The notes under the pieces are model-generated. The model did no database searches. It was not told the DNA's origin and saw only the letters and a list, made by a program, of their open reading frames with translations. Positions 34,077-37,550 of a stretch of DNA of 64,000 nt are shown here, piece by piece. The stretch is taken from contig NZ_NFJH01000001.1 in NCBI RefSeq assembly GCF_002159765.1, positions 124,001 to 188,000 of the forward strand, given 5' to 3'. The translations under genes and the position numbers were made by a program. Within the stretch, counting starts at the first letter, position 1, and every line of letters starts with the position of its first letter. The DNA is from Collinsella sp. An268 (lineage in GTDB: Bacteria; Actinomycetota; Coriobacteriia; Coriobacteriales; Coriobacteriaceae).

Positions 34077-34568
34077 ATGGAGTACCGTATCTGCGAGAAG
34101 CCGGCGTTTCGCTTTGTGGGCGTCATGGCGCGCGTGCCGATGCAGTTTGAGGGCGAGAACCCCGCCATCGCCGCACTTGCCGGCTCTATTACCCAAGAGC
34201 AGCGTGCGGAGATGCATCAGCTGCAAGACGTGGAGCCCATAGAGGTGGTCAACGTCTCATGGGATTCCGACACCGACTTTCAGACAGAGTCCGGTACGCT
34301 CACGCACCTGATCGGGGTGCTTACGACCGTGCGCGAGGCGGGCGCGGGGCTGCATGTCGTCGACGTACCGGCGCTCACCTGGGCGGTCTTTCCTTCGGAT
34401 GGCCTGTTCCCGACCGCCATGCAGCAGACGACGGCAGCCATCTACGGGACGTGGCTTGCCGAGGTGCCCTACGAGCTCGACGGCTTCCGTATGTTCTCGT
34501 TTGCTCGCCCGCGCAAGGACGGGACCGCGTACAGCGAGGTCTGGGTTCCCGTACGTCGGCAGGGGTAG
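34077..34568 (+). CDS. GyrI-like small-molecule-binding protein
   Basis: The 163-residue protein looks like a stand-alone effector-binding domain of the AraC/SoxS-Rob/GyrI type: YRICEKPAFRFVGVMARVPM at the start, VVDVPALTWAVFPSDG in the middle, and YSEVWVPVRRQG at the end. It lacks a DNA-binding domain. Such proteins bind lipophilic cations and may buffer or hydrolyse toxic molecules. The ATG follows AGGTGGG. It sits just after a TetR-MFS efflux operon, which suggests a xenobiotic response, but the two have separate transcripts on current evidence. Confidence 0.82.
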   Translation: MEYRICEKPAFRFVGVMARVPMQFEGENPAIAALAGSITQEQRAEMHQLQDVEPIEVVNVSWDSDTDFQTESGTLTHLIGVLTTVREAGAGLHVVDVPALTWAVFPSDGLFPTAMQQTTAAIYGTWLAEVPYELDGFRMFSFARPRKDGTAYSEVWVPVRRQG

Positions 34569-34571
34569 CGC

Positions 34572-34973
34572 ATGTACGCCGCCGATACCGATCTTGCGCG
34601 GTTCTTCGCGCGCATGCCCGATATGCTGCCCGTTTACCGCATACTCGAGGACCGTATCAACGCGACCTGCGGCGATATCGAGATGCGCGTCCAAAAGACG
34701 CAGATCGCCTTCACCGACCGCTTCGGGTTCGCCTGGGTATCGCTGCCCCTGCGGCGGCGCCGGGACTGGCCTGAGCGCTGCCTTGTCGTGACCTTCGGCC
34801 TTCCGTACCGCAAGGAGTCGCCGCGCATCGCCATCACGACCGAGCCGTATCCCCACCGTTGGACGCACCACGTTCTGGTCGAGCGACCCGAGGATATTGA
34901 CGGCGAGCTCCTCGATTGGATAGGGGAGTCGCACGCGTTCTCCCTCACCAAGCGGCGCGGCGGGCGCCGCTGA
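34572..34973 (+). CDS. DUF5655-like protein
   Basis: The 133-residue protein begins three bases after the GyrI-like gene. RVQKTQIAFTDRFGFAWVSLP and later RWTHHVLVERPEDIDGELLDWIGESHAFS fit the DUF5655 family, often found as a lone domain in Actinobacteria and Firmicutes. It probably folds as a small alpha/beta domain and binds a ligand or protein partner; no enzymatic residues are recognised. The arrangement with the GyrI-like protein suggests a two-gene unit. Confidence 0.72.
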   Translation: MYAADTDLARFFARMPDMLPVYRILEDRINATCGDIEMRVQKTQIAFTDRFGFAWVSLPLRRRRDWPERCLVVTFGLPYRKESPRIAITTEPYPHRWTHHVLVERPEDIDGELLDWIGESHAFSLTKRRGGRR

Positions 34974-35096
34974 CGTGCGCGGGCGCCCGAACTCCGTGCG
35001 CACGTGCCGAGGTGCAGGCGCGCCCCGGCGCGCCGTGACGGCGCCCGAATCGTTCTATGCAGTTGCCGTGTCGGGTGGGGTTAGGTTCGCGTTTGG

Positions 35097-35104
35097 TATA
35101 CAAT
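35097..35104 (+). promoter_or_regulatory. -10 element of the zinc-ribbon gene
   Basis: TATACAAT contains TACAAT or TATACA, 37-44 bases before the ATG. A -35 hexamer is not evident (region GTTAGGTTCGCG). It may also drive the thrS leader downstream. Confidence 0.5.
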
Positions 35105-35140
35105 GGGCCCGTTATCCGCCTTGACGAAAGGTTTCTATCC

Positions 35141-35572
35141 ATGTCGAGTCTTCTTTCCGAGCTGCTCACGCCCGAGCTCATGATGGCCATCTATCTCTTC
35201 ATCGCCTTCATCGTGGCGCTCTACGTGCTCTCCGTCGTGTACGTGTTCGTCGATGCGCGCCGTCGCGGCATCCAGGCGTTCTGGGCGTGGGGCATCGTTT
35301 CGCTCATCCCCTTCATCGGCCTCATCGCCTACCTCGCGCTGCGTCCGCACAGCTATCTCGCCGACCGTGAGGAGCAGGAGCTCGATATGGCGCTTCGCGA
35401 GCGCCAGCTCTCGCACTACGGCACCTGCCCCAACTGCGGCACGCCCATCGAGCGCGACTTCGTGGTCTGCCCGGTGTGCAACACGCAGGTCCGCAACGTC
35501 TGCCCGTCGTGCCATCGCCCGCTCGATGCGCACTGGAAGGTCTGCCCCTACTGCCGTACGCACATCCAGTAG
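35141..35572 (+). CDS. Membrane protein with C-terminal zinc ribbons
   Basis: The 143-residue protein has two hydrophobic helices (about residues 12-32 and 45-66) separated by VFVDARRRGIQAFWAW, a phospholipase-D-nuclease-like membrane hairpin. The C-terminal part carries three CXXC pairs: CPNCGTP, CPVCNTQ and CPSCHRP, and a fourth, CPYCRTH. These form zinc ribbons facing the cytoplasm. The function is unknown. It lies directly upstream of the thrS leader, with no terminator between, so it may be cotranscribed. Confidence 0.8.
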   Translation: MSSLLSELLTPELMMAIYLFIAFIVALYVLSVVYVFVDARRRGIQAFWAWGIVSLIPFIGLIAYLALRPHSYLADREEQELDMALRERQLSHYGTCPNCGTPIERDFVVCPVCNTQVRNVCPSCHRPLDAHWKVCPYCRTHIQ

Positions 35573-35603
35573 GACGGCCGCGCGAATCAGAAAGGTCTCG
35601 TCC

Positions 35604-35648
35604 ATGCCGTTTGTGCGAGGACATAGCTACACTACGCAGACTATCTAG
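35604..35648 (+). CDS. Threonine leader peptide upstream of thrS
   Basis: A 14-residue frame reads MPFVRGHSYTTQTI and ends TAG. It has its own AAAGG site nine bases before the ATG. Three of the last five codons are threonine (codons starting at 35631, 35634 and 35640), followed by one isoleucine. The stop codon lies at the base of the first hairpin of an attenuator-like structure before thrS. This is the layout expected of a ribosome-mediated attenuator that senses charged tRNA-Thr. The call rests on arrangement; translation is not shown. Confidence 0.8.
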   Translation: MPFVRGHSYTTQTI

Positions 35649-35738
35649 GCGTCTGTCCCTTTCCGGGCCGGCAGGTCCTGGACAGGCGCCCCAAATCGCT
35701 CGGCGCCGCCTCGGCGGTGCGGGGCGATTTTCTGTTTT
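35648..35738 (+). promoter_or_regulatory. Transcription attenuator of thrS (pause hairpin, antiterminator, terminator)
   Basis: Segment 1 (GGCGTCTGTCC, 35648-35658) pairs with segment 2 (GGACAGGCGCC, 35680-35690). Segment 2 contains GGCGCC (35685-35690), which can instead pair with GGCGCC at 35702-35707, forming an antiterminator. That would break the terminator, whose stem joins AAATCGC (35693-35699) to GCGATTT (35724-35730), with a nested GCGCCGCC/GGCGGTGC stem and a following TTTTCTGTTTT. The pairings are mutually exclusive. A ribosome stalled on the Thr codons would cover segment 1 and favour read-through into thrS. Confidence 0.8.
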
Positions 35739-35786
35739 GCCCTGCCGTATCCCGTTGCGTTTTCCACCACCAGAAGAGAGGTTCCC

Positions 35787-37550
35787 ATGAAAGTCCTGTA
35801 TAACGACGGCCGCGTCGACGAGTGCCCCGCCGACGAGGTGACCCACGTCATCCGTCATTCCGCTGCGCACATCATGGCCCAGGCCGTGAAGCGGCTCTAT
35901 CCCGAGGCGGACTTCGCCTACGGCCCCGCCACCGACAACGGCTTCTACTACGATATCGACCTCCCCGAGGGCCAGAAGATCTCCGAGGACGATTTCCCCG
36001 CCATCGAGGCCGAGATGAAAAAGATCGTGAAGGAGAACCTCAAGTTCTCCGTGTTCGAGCTCCCGCGCGAGGAGGCCATCGCCCTTATGGAGAAGCGCGG
36101 CGAGAAGTACAAGGTCGAGCACATCGGCGACCTGCCCGATGATGCGCGCATCACGTTCTACCAACAGGGCGAGTACATCGATATGTGCGTCGGCCCGCAC
36201 CTCACCTACACCAAGGCGCTCAAGGCCTTCAAGCTCACCGGTGTCTCCGGCGCCTACTGGAAGGGCGACAAGGACAACAAGATGCTCACGCGCGTGAACG
36301 GCACCGCGTTCGCCACCAAGGCGGAGCTCGACGAGCACCTGCGCCTCATCGAGGAGGCGAAGAAGCGCGACCACCGCAAGATCGGTCGCGAGATGGATAT
36401 CTTCATGATGCGCGACGAGGCCCCCGGGTTCCCGTTCTTCCTCCCCAACGGCATGATCCTCAAAAACGAGCTCCTCGACTACTGGCGCGAGATCCATCGC
36501 GCCGCCGGGTACGTCGAAATCTCGACGCCCATGATCATGAACAAGGAGCTTTGGAAGACCTCCGGTCACTGGGACCACTACAAGGACAACATGTACTCCA
36601 CCGTCATCGACGACGAGGAGTACTGCATCAAGCCCATGAACTGCCCCGGCGGCGTGCTCGTGTACAAGAGCCGGCCGCACAGCTATCGCGAGCTCCCCAT
36701 TCGCGCCGGCGAGATCGGTCTTGTGCACCGTCATGAGATGCGCGGCGCGCTCCACGGCCTGTTCCGCGTGCGCTGCTTCAATCAGGACGATGCCCACCTG
36801 TTCGTCCGGCCGGACCAGCTGACCGACGAGATCGTGGGCGTGGTGAACCTCATCGACTCCGTCTACCAGAAGTTCGGCTTCACCTACCATCTCGAGCTCT
36901 CGACCCGTCCTGAGGACTCCATGGGTTCCGATGAGGACTGGGAGCGCGCCGAGGCAGGCCTGCGCGAGGCCCTCGAGCGCCTGGGCAAGGACTACGTCGT
37001 CAACGAGGGCGACGGCGCCTTCTACGGGCCCAAGATCGACTTCCATCTGGAGGACTCCCTCGGCCGCACCTGGCAGTGCGGCACCGTGCAGCTGGACTTC
37101 CAGATGCCGCTCAACTTCGATCTCGAGTACACCGACGCCGACGGCTCCAAGAAGCGCCCCATCATGCTGCACCGCGTGTGCTTCGGCTCCATCGAGCGCT
37201 TCATCGGCATCCTGATCGAGCACTTCGAGGGCAAGTTCCCCACGTGGCTCGCGCCCTGCCAGGTGAAGGTGTTGCCCGTTTCCGAGAAGAGCCGCGACTA
37301 CGCCCGCAACGTGACGGATCGCCTCGAGGCAGCCGGTATCCGCGCCGTGCTCGACGAGCGCGACGAGAAGATCGGCTATAAGATCCGCGAGGCGCGCAAC
37401 ATCGACCGCCCGCCCTACATGCTCATCATCGGGGAGCAGGAGGTCGAGGCGGGCAACATCTCGGTGCGCGACCGCACGAACGAGACCCATGTGGCCGAGC
37501 TCGATGCCTTCATCGCCGACGTGACGGCCGAGATCGCTGAGCGCCGTTAG
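35787..37550 (+). CDS. thrS: Threonine--tRNA ligase lacking the N-terminal TGS domain
   Basis: The 587-residue enzyme charges tRNA-Thr. Residues 20-180 are the editing domain (HSAAHIMAQAVKRLYP, then YIDMCVGPHLTYTK). The class II core follows with GFPFFLPNGMILKNEL (motif 1 region), KPMNCPGGVLVYKS, the motif 2 sequence RHEMRGALHGLFRVRCFNQDDAH, and motif 3 in LHRVCFGSIERFIGILIEH. A C-terminal anticodon-binding domain closes it. Compared with the usual 640 residues it begins directly at the editing domain and has no TGS domain. The ATG follows AAGAGAGG. Expression is probably controlled by the attenuator upstream. Confidence 0.97.
   Translation: MKVLYNDGRVDECPADEVTHVIRHSAAHIMAQAVKRLYPEADFAYGPATDNGFYYDIDLPEGQKISEDDFPAIEAEMKKIVKENLKFSVFELPREEAIALMEKRGEKYKVEHIGDLPDDARITFYQQGEYIDMCVGPHLTYTKALKAFKLTGVSGAYWKGDKDNKMLTRVNGTAFATKAELDEHLRLIEEAKKRDHRKIGREMDIFMMRDEAPGFPFFLPNGMILKNELLDYWREIHRAAGYVEISTPMIMNKELWKTSGHWDHYKDNMYSTVIDDEEYCIKPMNCPGGVLVYKSRPHSYRELPIRAGEIGLVHRHEMRGALHGLFRVRCFNQDDAHLFVRPDQLTDEIVGVVNLIDSVYQKFGFTYHLELSTRPEDSMGSDEDWERAEAGLREALERLGKDYVVNEGDGAFYGPKIDFHLEDSLGRTWQCGTVQLDFQMPLNFDLEYTDADGSKKRPIMLHRVCFGSIERFIGILIEHFEGKFPTWLAPCQVKVLPVSEKSRDYARNVTDRLEAAGIRAVLDERDEKIGYKIREARNIDRPPYMLIIGEQEVEAGNISVRDRTNETHVAELDAFIADVTAEIAERR

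Follow-up and report, generated by a model that had tools for sequence, protein, structure and literature searches.

How does Collinsella sp. An268 adjust the expression of thrS, its threonyl-tRNA synthetase gene, to the supply of charged Thr-tRNA? Between a zinc-ribbon gene and thrS the forward strand carries, in this order, the Shine–Dalgarno-like site AGAAAGG, a 14-codon frame, a hairpin (1:2) and a terminator, an arrangement that the initial annotation had read as a leader-peptide attenuator. Here, ‘the window’ is the whole stretch of DNA analysed (64 000 nt), and all coordinates are positions within it (Table 1). Comparison with related sequences makes it probable, in our view, that the element is a ribosome-mediated, threonine-dependent attenuator that senses charged Thr-tRNA. 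Translation of the leader, its Thr codons, the spacing between codon and stem, stem 1:2 and, in most members, the terminator are supported by that comparison. That stalling alters termination, the direction of the change and the pairing of segment 2 with segment 3 are steps that we infer.

The thrS leader region and the proposed switch

The initial annotation was correct in its description of the parts and in their positions: a 14-codon leader with its own ribosome-binding site, hairpins and a terminator, followed by thrS. The leader reads M P F V R G H S Y T T Q T I and ends on a TAG stop codon (35646–35648), the G of which is also the first base of segment 1. Its Thr codons, numbers 10, 11 and 13, are ACT (35631), ACG (35634) and ACT (35640). 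The minimum free energy fold contains both 1:2 (11 bp) and 3:4 (16 bp) and has z=−2.8 against shuffled sequences, bearing in mind that free-energy arguments leave out folding kinetics and proteins. The terminator stem extends from 35693 to approximately 35730 (−27.5 kcal/mol), and its T-rich tail runs to 35738.

The synthetase of the window has editing, catalytic and anticodon-binding domains; a TGS domain was not matched in it (35787–37550). Longer threonyl-tRNA synthetases (about 640–670 aa), 47–50 % identical to that of the window, are found in other families of the class. The membrane/zinc-ribbon gene is the direct 5′ neighbour of thrS in many of the class's genomes, among them genomes without the leader.

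Table 1. Features of the thrS locus, with window coordinates and the basis of each assignment
Feature	Position	Strand	Basis or remark
Membrane/zinc-ribbon protein gene upstream of thrS	35057..35572		
Shine–Dalgarno-like site AGAAAGG of the leader frame	35589..35595	+	Sequence reading
Leader, 14 codons, MPFVRGHSYTTQTI*, ATG at 35604	35604..35648	+	Translation; Thr-rich homologues
Base-conserved core CAGACTATCTAGGCGTCTG, with the last Thr codon 5 nt 5′ of stem GGCG	35637..35655	+	Exact or near-exact before thrS across genera
Segment 1, GGCGTCTGTCC (5′ strand of stem 1:2, GGCGUCUGUCC)	35648..35658	+	Covariation, alignments A2 and A3
Segment 2, GGACAGGCGCC (3′ strand of stem 1:2)	35680..35690	+	Covariation
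Segments 3:4, intrinsic terminator AAATCGCTCGGCGCCGCC...GGTGCGGGGCGATTT and T-rich tail	35693..35738	+	Hairpin with T-run in homologues
GGCGCC, candidate 2:3 antiterminator partner of the segment 2 GGCGCC	35702..35707	+	Folding with segment 1 masked; not conserved
thrS, threonyl-tRNA synthetase, 587 aa	35787..37550	+	No TGS domain detected

The position of a waiting ribosome relative to stem 1:2 is central to any such switch. The ribosome footprint was taken, as in toeprints, to reach 12–14 nt ahead of the first base in the A site. With this assumed footprint, the earlier claim that a ribosome stalled on the Thr codons would cover segment 1 holds in part: with codon 13 in the A site, approximately the first six nucleotides of segment 1 are covered and the GGCGCC of segment 2 is freed, but a ribosome on codon 10 or 11 stops short of segment 1 and leaves stem 1:2 intact. 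A ribosome on the leader stop codon, placed by the same footprint, covers the whole of segment 1.

With the A site on codon 13, a 6 bp 2:3 helix (35685–35690 with 35702–35707) is predicted at transcript ends 35708–35716. For the helix to fold, segment 1 has to be masked and the transcript must stop short of segment 4; once the transcript is complete, 3:4 prevails whether or not segment 1 is masked. Because 3:4 displaces 2:3 from a transcript end of approximately 35720, antitermination by 2:3 would have to be kinetic.

In the mechanism that we propose, a ribosome with enough Thr-tRNA would clear the Thr codons and depart at the leader stop, and hairpin 1:2 would form. With 1:2 in place, the independent hairpin 3:4 would form as well, and transcription would end before thrS. 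When charged Thr-tRNA is scarce, the ribosome would wait on the leader Thr codons, and with the last of them in the A site (35640–35642, a codon that is rare in the genome) its leading edge would open the base of 1:2. The opened stem would free the GGCGCC of segment 2, which, until segment 4 has been transcribed, could pair transiently with the GGCGCC of segment 3; in this genome, such transient pairing would delay the terminator and allow thrS to be read.

Stem 1:2, the terminator and the route to thrS

The initial annotation had suggested looking for the same leader before thrS in other genomes. A search of 397 genomes of the order with a covariance model of the core placed the element 5′ of thrS in 93 (E≤1e-4), all of them from two families, one comprising Collinsella, Enorma and ‘Candidatus Coprousia’ and the other Olsenella, Thermophilibacter and other Atopobiaceae. 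The core, CAGACTATCTAGGCGTCTG, is present as a single copy per genome and lies directly 5′ of thrS in nearly all of the loci inspected. A core match outside the thrS context (L052) was set aside as chance, as was a match in another actinobacterial family (E 0.003) with no ThrRS match nearby. No convincing element was found beyond the two families, either in 55 other genomes of the class (30 thrS upstream regions of which were read) or in 396 genomes of the phylum. Some close relatives are also without the element, including genomes of the same genus and the larger Collinsella group. In a few genera (L183, L187, L188 and L197) it precedes a thrS just 43 % identical to that of the window, so that the element tracks the function of the enzyme. 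Base-level conservation before thrS across genera, together with the covariation of stem 1:2, argues that the element is not a product of chance. The counts of loci given here and below include related genomes; the statistic on Thr content used representatives.

Stem 1:2 is paired in 98.2 % of cases across 55 sequences and in 98.4 % across a more diverse set of 56. Two-sided changes occur at 6 of its 10 pairs (26 cells), a level reached in none of 500 shuffles, and the three basal pairs, GGC/GCC, are invariant (56/56). A terminator-like hairpin with a T-run is present in 78 of 95 homologous loci; the other 17 have no recognizable terminator and still have the leader Thr codons, the spacing and stem 1:2. 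Three further pairing schemes found no support among the relatives: at loci lacking a terminator, the thrS start was not consistently sequestered; an extra CAGAC/GUCUG stem did not covary and was broken in several members; and pairing of the leader Shine–Dalgarno sequence with the pyrimidine-rich loop of 1:2 was no better for a locus's own pair than for swapped pairs.

The 2:3 stem behaves differently from stem 1:2. Its pairing in the relatives was no better than that of shuffled arms (mean z 0.19 across 78 terminator loci), and averaged pair probabilities reached at most about 0.25. We reject 2:3 as a conserved feature, and as the general switch it is not supported. Of the 2:3 stem in the initial annotation there remains that it can form in transcripts of the window, where it yields to 3:4 at full length. 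The broader claim of that annotation, control by ribosome stalling, agrees with the comparison as regards leader translation, the Thr codons, the competing hairpin and the terminator, but not as regards 2:3 pairing as the general switch.

These results bring in a rival that is less probable than threonine-dependent attenuation through the terminator but is still a real possibility: Thr-dependent translation of the leader would be genuine, the output would not pass through a 2:3 antiterminator, and the terminator would be an optional addition. The state of stem 1:2 could then act through access of Rho, through RNA processing or decay, or through an effect of the hairpin on the polymerase. What makes a different output a serious rival is the set of 17 loci that have leader and stem and show neither a terminator nor consistent start sequestration. 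That 2:3 is not conserved while the GGC/GCC stem base never varies fits the same view. However, a terminator kept at 78 of 95 loci is hard to explain if idle, 2:3 can form at the right transcript lengths in this genome, and in actinobacteria a hairpin may terminate transcription even if no T-run follows it.

More doubtful again is the suggestion that the element represents a distinct subtype of leader peptide, in which the fixed contact that a ribosome waiting at the final, rare Thr codon makes with the base of 1:2 would itself be the switch, and a classical antiterminator would play no part. Were this so, one and the same sensor could be coupled to a terminator in certain lineages and to another output elsewhere. 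Members that lack a terminator, such as L063 and L168, are natural variants through which the essential part of an attenuator could be sought.

The leader frame and its threonine codons

Conservation of the leader frame and hairpin in relatives, on which the initial annotation had staked its reading, is evident in the covarying stem and in the frame itself: a start codon behind a ribosome-binding site, with the frame open up to the motif, was found in 89 of 97 loci, the corresponding figures for the other two frames being 7 and 9. Most relatives have GAAAGG or a similar site 5′ of the leader. In near relatives the leader is a 14-residue peptide ending in RTQTI*, nearly fixed in one clade. Diverged leaders, of 8 to approximately 34 residues, retain just T-x-T-x-stop and are often Thr-rich, with runs of up to six Thr codons (...IPTTTTTTI*, ...IPTITTTTI*, ...RTTTTVTI*, ...ATRVTTTVTI*, ...RSTTTL*, MLSPTTRASRPTATR* and ...VVTTGFLTHTTETI*). 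Across 47 representatives, Thr accounts for 12.6 % of the residues that precede the last Thr, tested against 5.5 % (p about 7e-14). A few leaders (L023, L064 and L065) contain a single Thr.

The codon placed 5 nt 5′ of the stem encodes Thr in all 97 loci (ACT, ACA or ACC), and the residue after it varies freely (I, M, L, F, R, S, T, N, K or A). In L171 the stop codon is one codon earlier and the distance from Thr to stem is unchanged. Although ACT accounts for 2 % of the Thr codons in genes of the window, 94 of 97 leaders use it as their last Thr codon, a uniformity that is partly set by the conserved core and to which the way the homologues were found could contribute. In three loci (L057, L058 and L177) the leader stop has been lost (TAG to GAG); the Thr codon and stem 1:2 are retained, and there is no recognizable terminator. 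Strong purifying selection on the leader peptide is not indicated: the synonymous fraction, 0.32 against an expected 0.26, is slightly raised, as would be expected if translation and the Thr codons are mainly what matters.

Some further features of the leaders were noted. L183, L188 and L197 carry an 8-codon leader, MNRRTQT(F/S)*, before the second, 43 %-identical type of thrS. A −10-like box, TACACT, is found approximately 7 nt 5′ of the ATG of this leader, whose mRNA may therefore be leaderless. In L070–L126, the leader codons GCACATATCGCTCGAACG are similar to GCC(A/G)CATATCGCTCGACG, the stretch that precedes the terminator, strikingly so in some loci. Overall, leader codons matched the pre-terminator stretch of their own locus, as a direct repeat, no better than swapped controls did (own 5.06 against swapped 4.83, 11/200), and the resemblance probably reflects relatedness.

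The near-fixed RTQTI* ending and 14-residue length in one clade would also suit a nascent peptide that arrests the ribosome at the leader stop in response to something other than Thr-tRNA, and segment 1 is exactly what a ribosome positioned on that stop would cover. We consider this improbable, since diverged members keep just T-x-T-x-stop with varied lengths and Thr runs, and since in L171 the stop moved and the Thr-to-stem distance did not.

There is similarly little to recommend the view that ThrRS or uncharged tRNA-Thr binds a conserved RNA, by mRNA mimicry of the Escherichia coli type or in a T-box-like manner, with the short frame being incidental. It is true that bases near the stop codon and at the foot of the stem are conserved beyond the needs of pairing. 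However, the Thr enrichment and conservation of the leader frame speak against it, the stem and loops vary in sequence, and the ThrRS of the window is without a detected TGS domain. No Rfam family matched the thrS leader region, and the T-box covariance model gave no match at thrS at either the gathering or a relaxed threshold.

Finally, it is very unlikely that the terminator merely ends the upstream zinc-ribbon gene, with thrS having its own promoter 3′ of the terminator: that gene does end at 35572, and L005 and L007, relatives from the genus of the window that have lost leader and stem 1:2 before thrS, can keep a terminator with the CGCTCG...CGGGCGTTTTT signature at the same place, but this view would leave unexplained why the frame, the Thr codons, their spacing and stem 1:2 are conserved, and no sigma-70-like site was found in 34500–36500.

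Relation to known systems

In the literature searched, we found no description of the Coriobacteriales element. Leader attenuators have been reported for trpS and leuS in Streptomyces and for pheST in enterics, in a paper that records no conserved structure among the threonine genes and makes no mention of Coriobacteria (PMC1262725), and hisS leaders are described in bacilli (PMC2965389). If our reading is right, threonine joins, on strong comparative evidence, the amino acids whose synthetase genes are controlled by leader peptides, and the element defines a family, apparently absent from Rfam, in two gut-associated actinobacterial families. Judged from sequence, the type of control would be one already known, with an unusual geometry and a candidate antiterminator.

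The closest precedent by gene is thrL (MKRVRPFLETTPGFVPAR*), proposed in 2021 from RNA-seq to lie before thrS in Streptomyces lividans and described as leaderless and as having a single hairpin that lacks a U-run (PMC8079986). The initial annotation had called stalling a different solution for the control of thrS, a phrase that needs softening in view of this earlier proposal. Both elements place Thr codons in a short frame before thrS of an actinobacterium, but they have no sequence or spacing in common. The Streptomyces trpS and leuS systems likewise represent leader-peptide attenuation of synthetase genes in Actinobacteria, for other amino acids.

By architecture, the element resembles pheST of E. 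coli, with its pheM leader, and the classical trp, thr, his and leu attenuators, which share a short leader with cognate codons, an early hairpin and an intrinsic terminator; pheST, a comparison named in PMC1262725, also shares a synthetase gene as the target. In contrast to these systems, segment 1 here begins at the leader stop instead of overlapping the regulatory codons, 2:3 is not conserved, the core is conserved at the level of bases, and some members have no terminator.

The E. coli thrS operator has the same target gene, but there ThrRS represses translation, whereas here a Thr-rich leader and a terminator precede the gene. T-boxes follow the same logic of sensing charged tRNA, although none was matched at thrS. 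T-box-like matches, below the curated cut-off, do precede ileS, ilvD and pheS of the same genome (L200, L201 and L202), so that T-boxes and, for thrS, a leader peptide appear to coexist in it. T-box-like ileS, ilvD and pheS beside a leader-peptide thrS would allow the choice of sensing system to be compared inside one organism.
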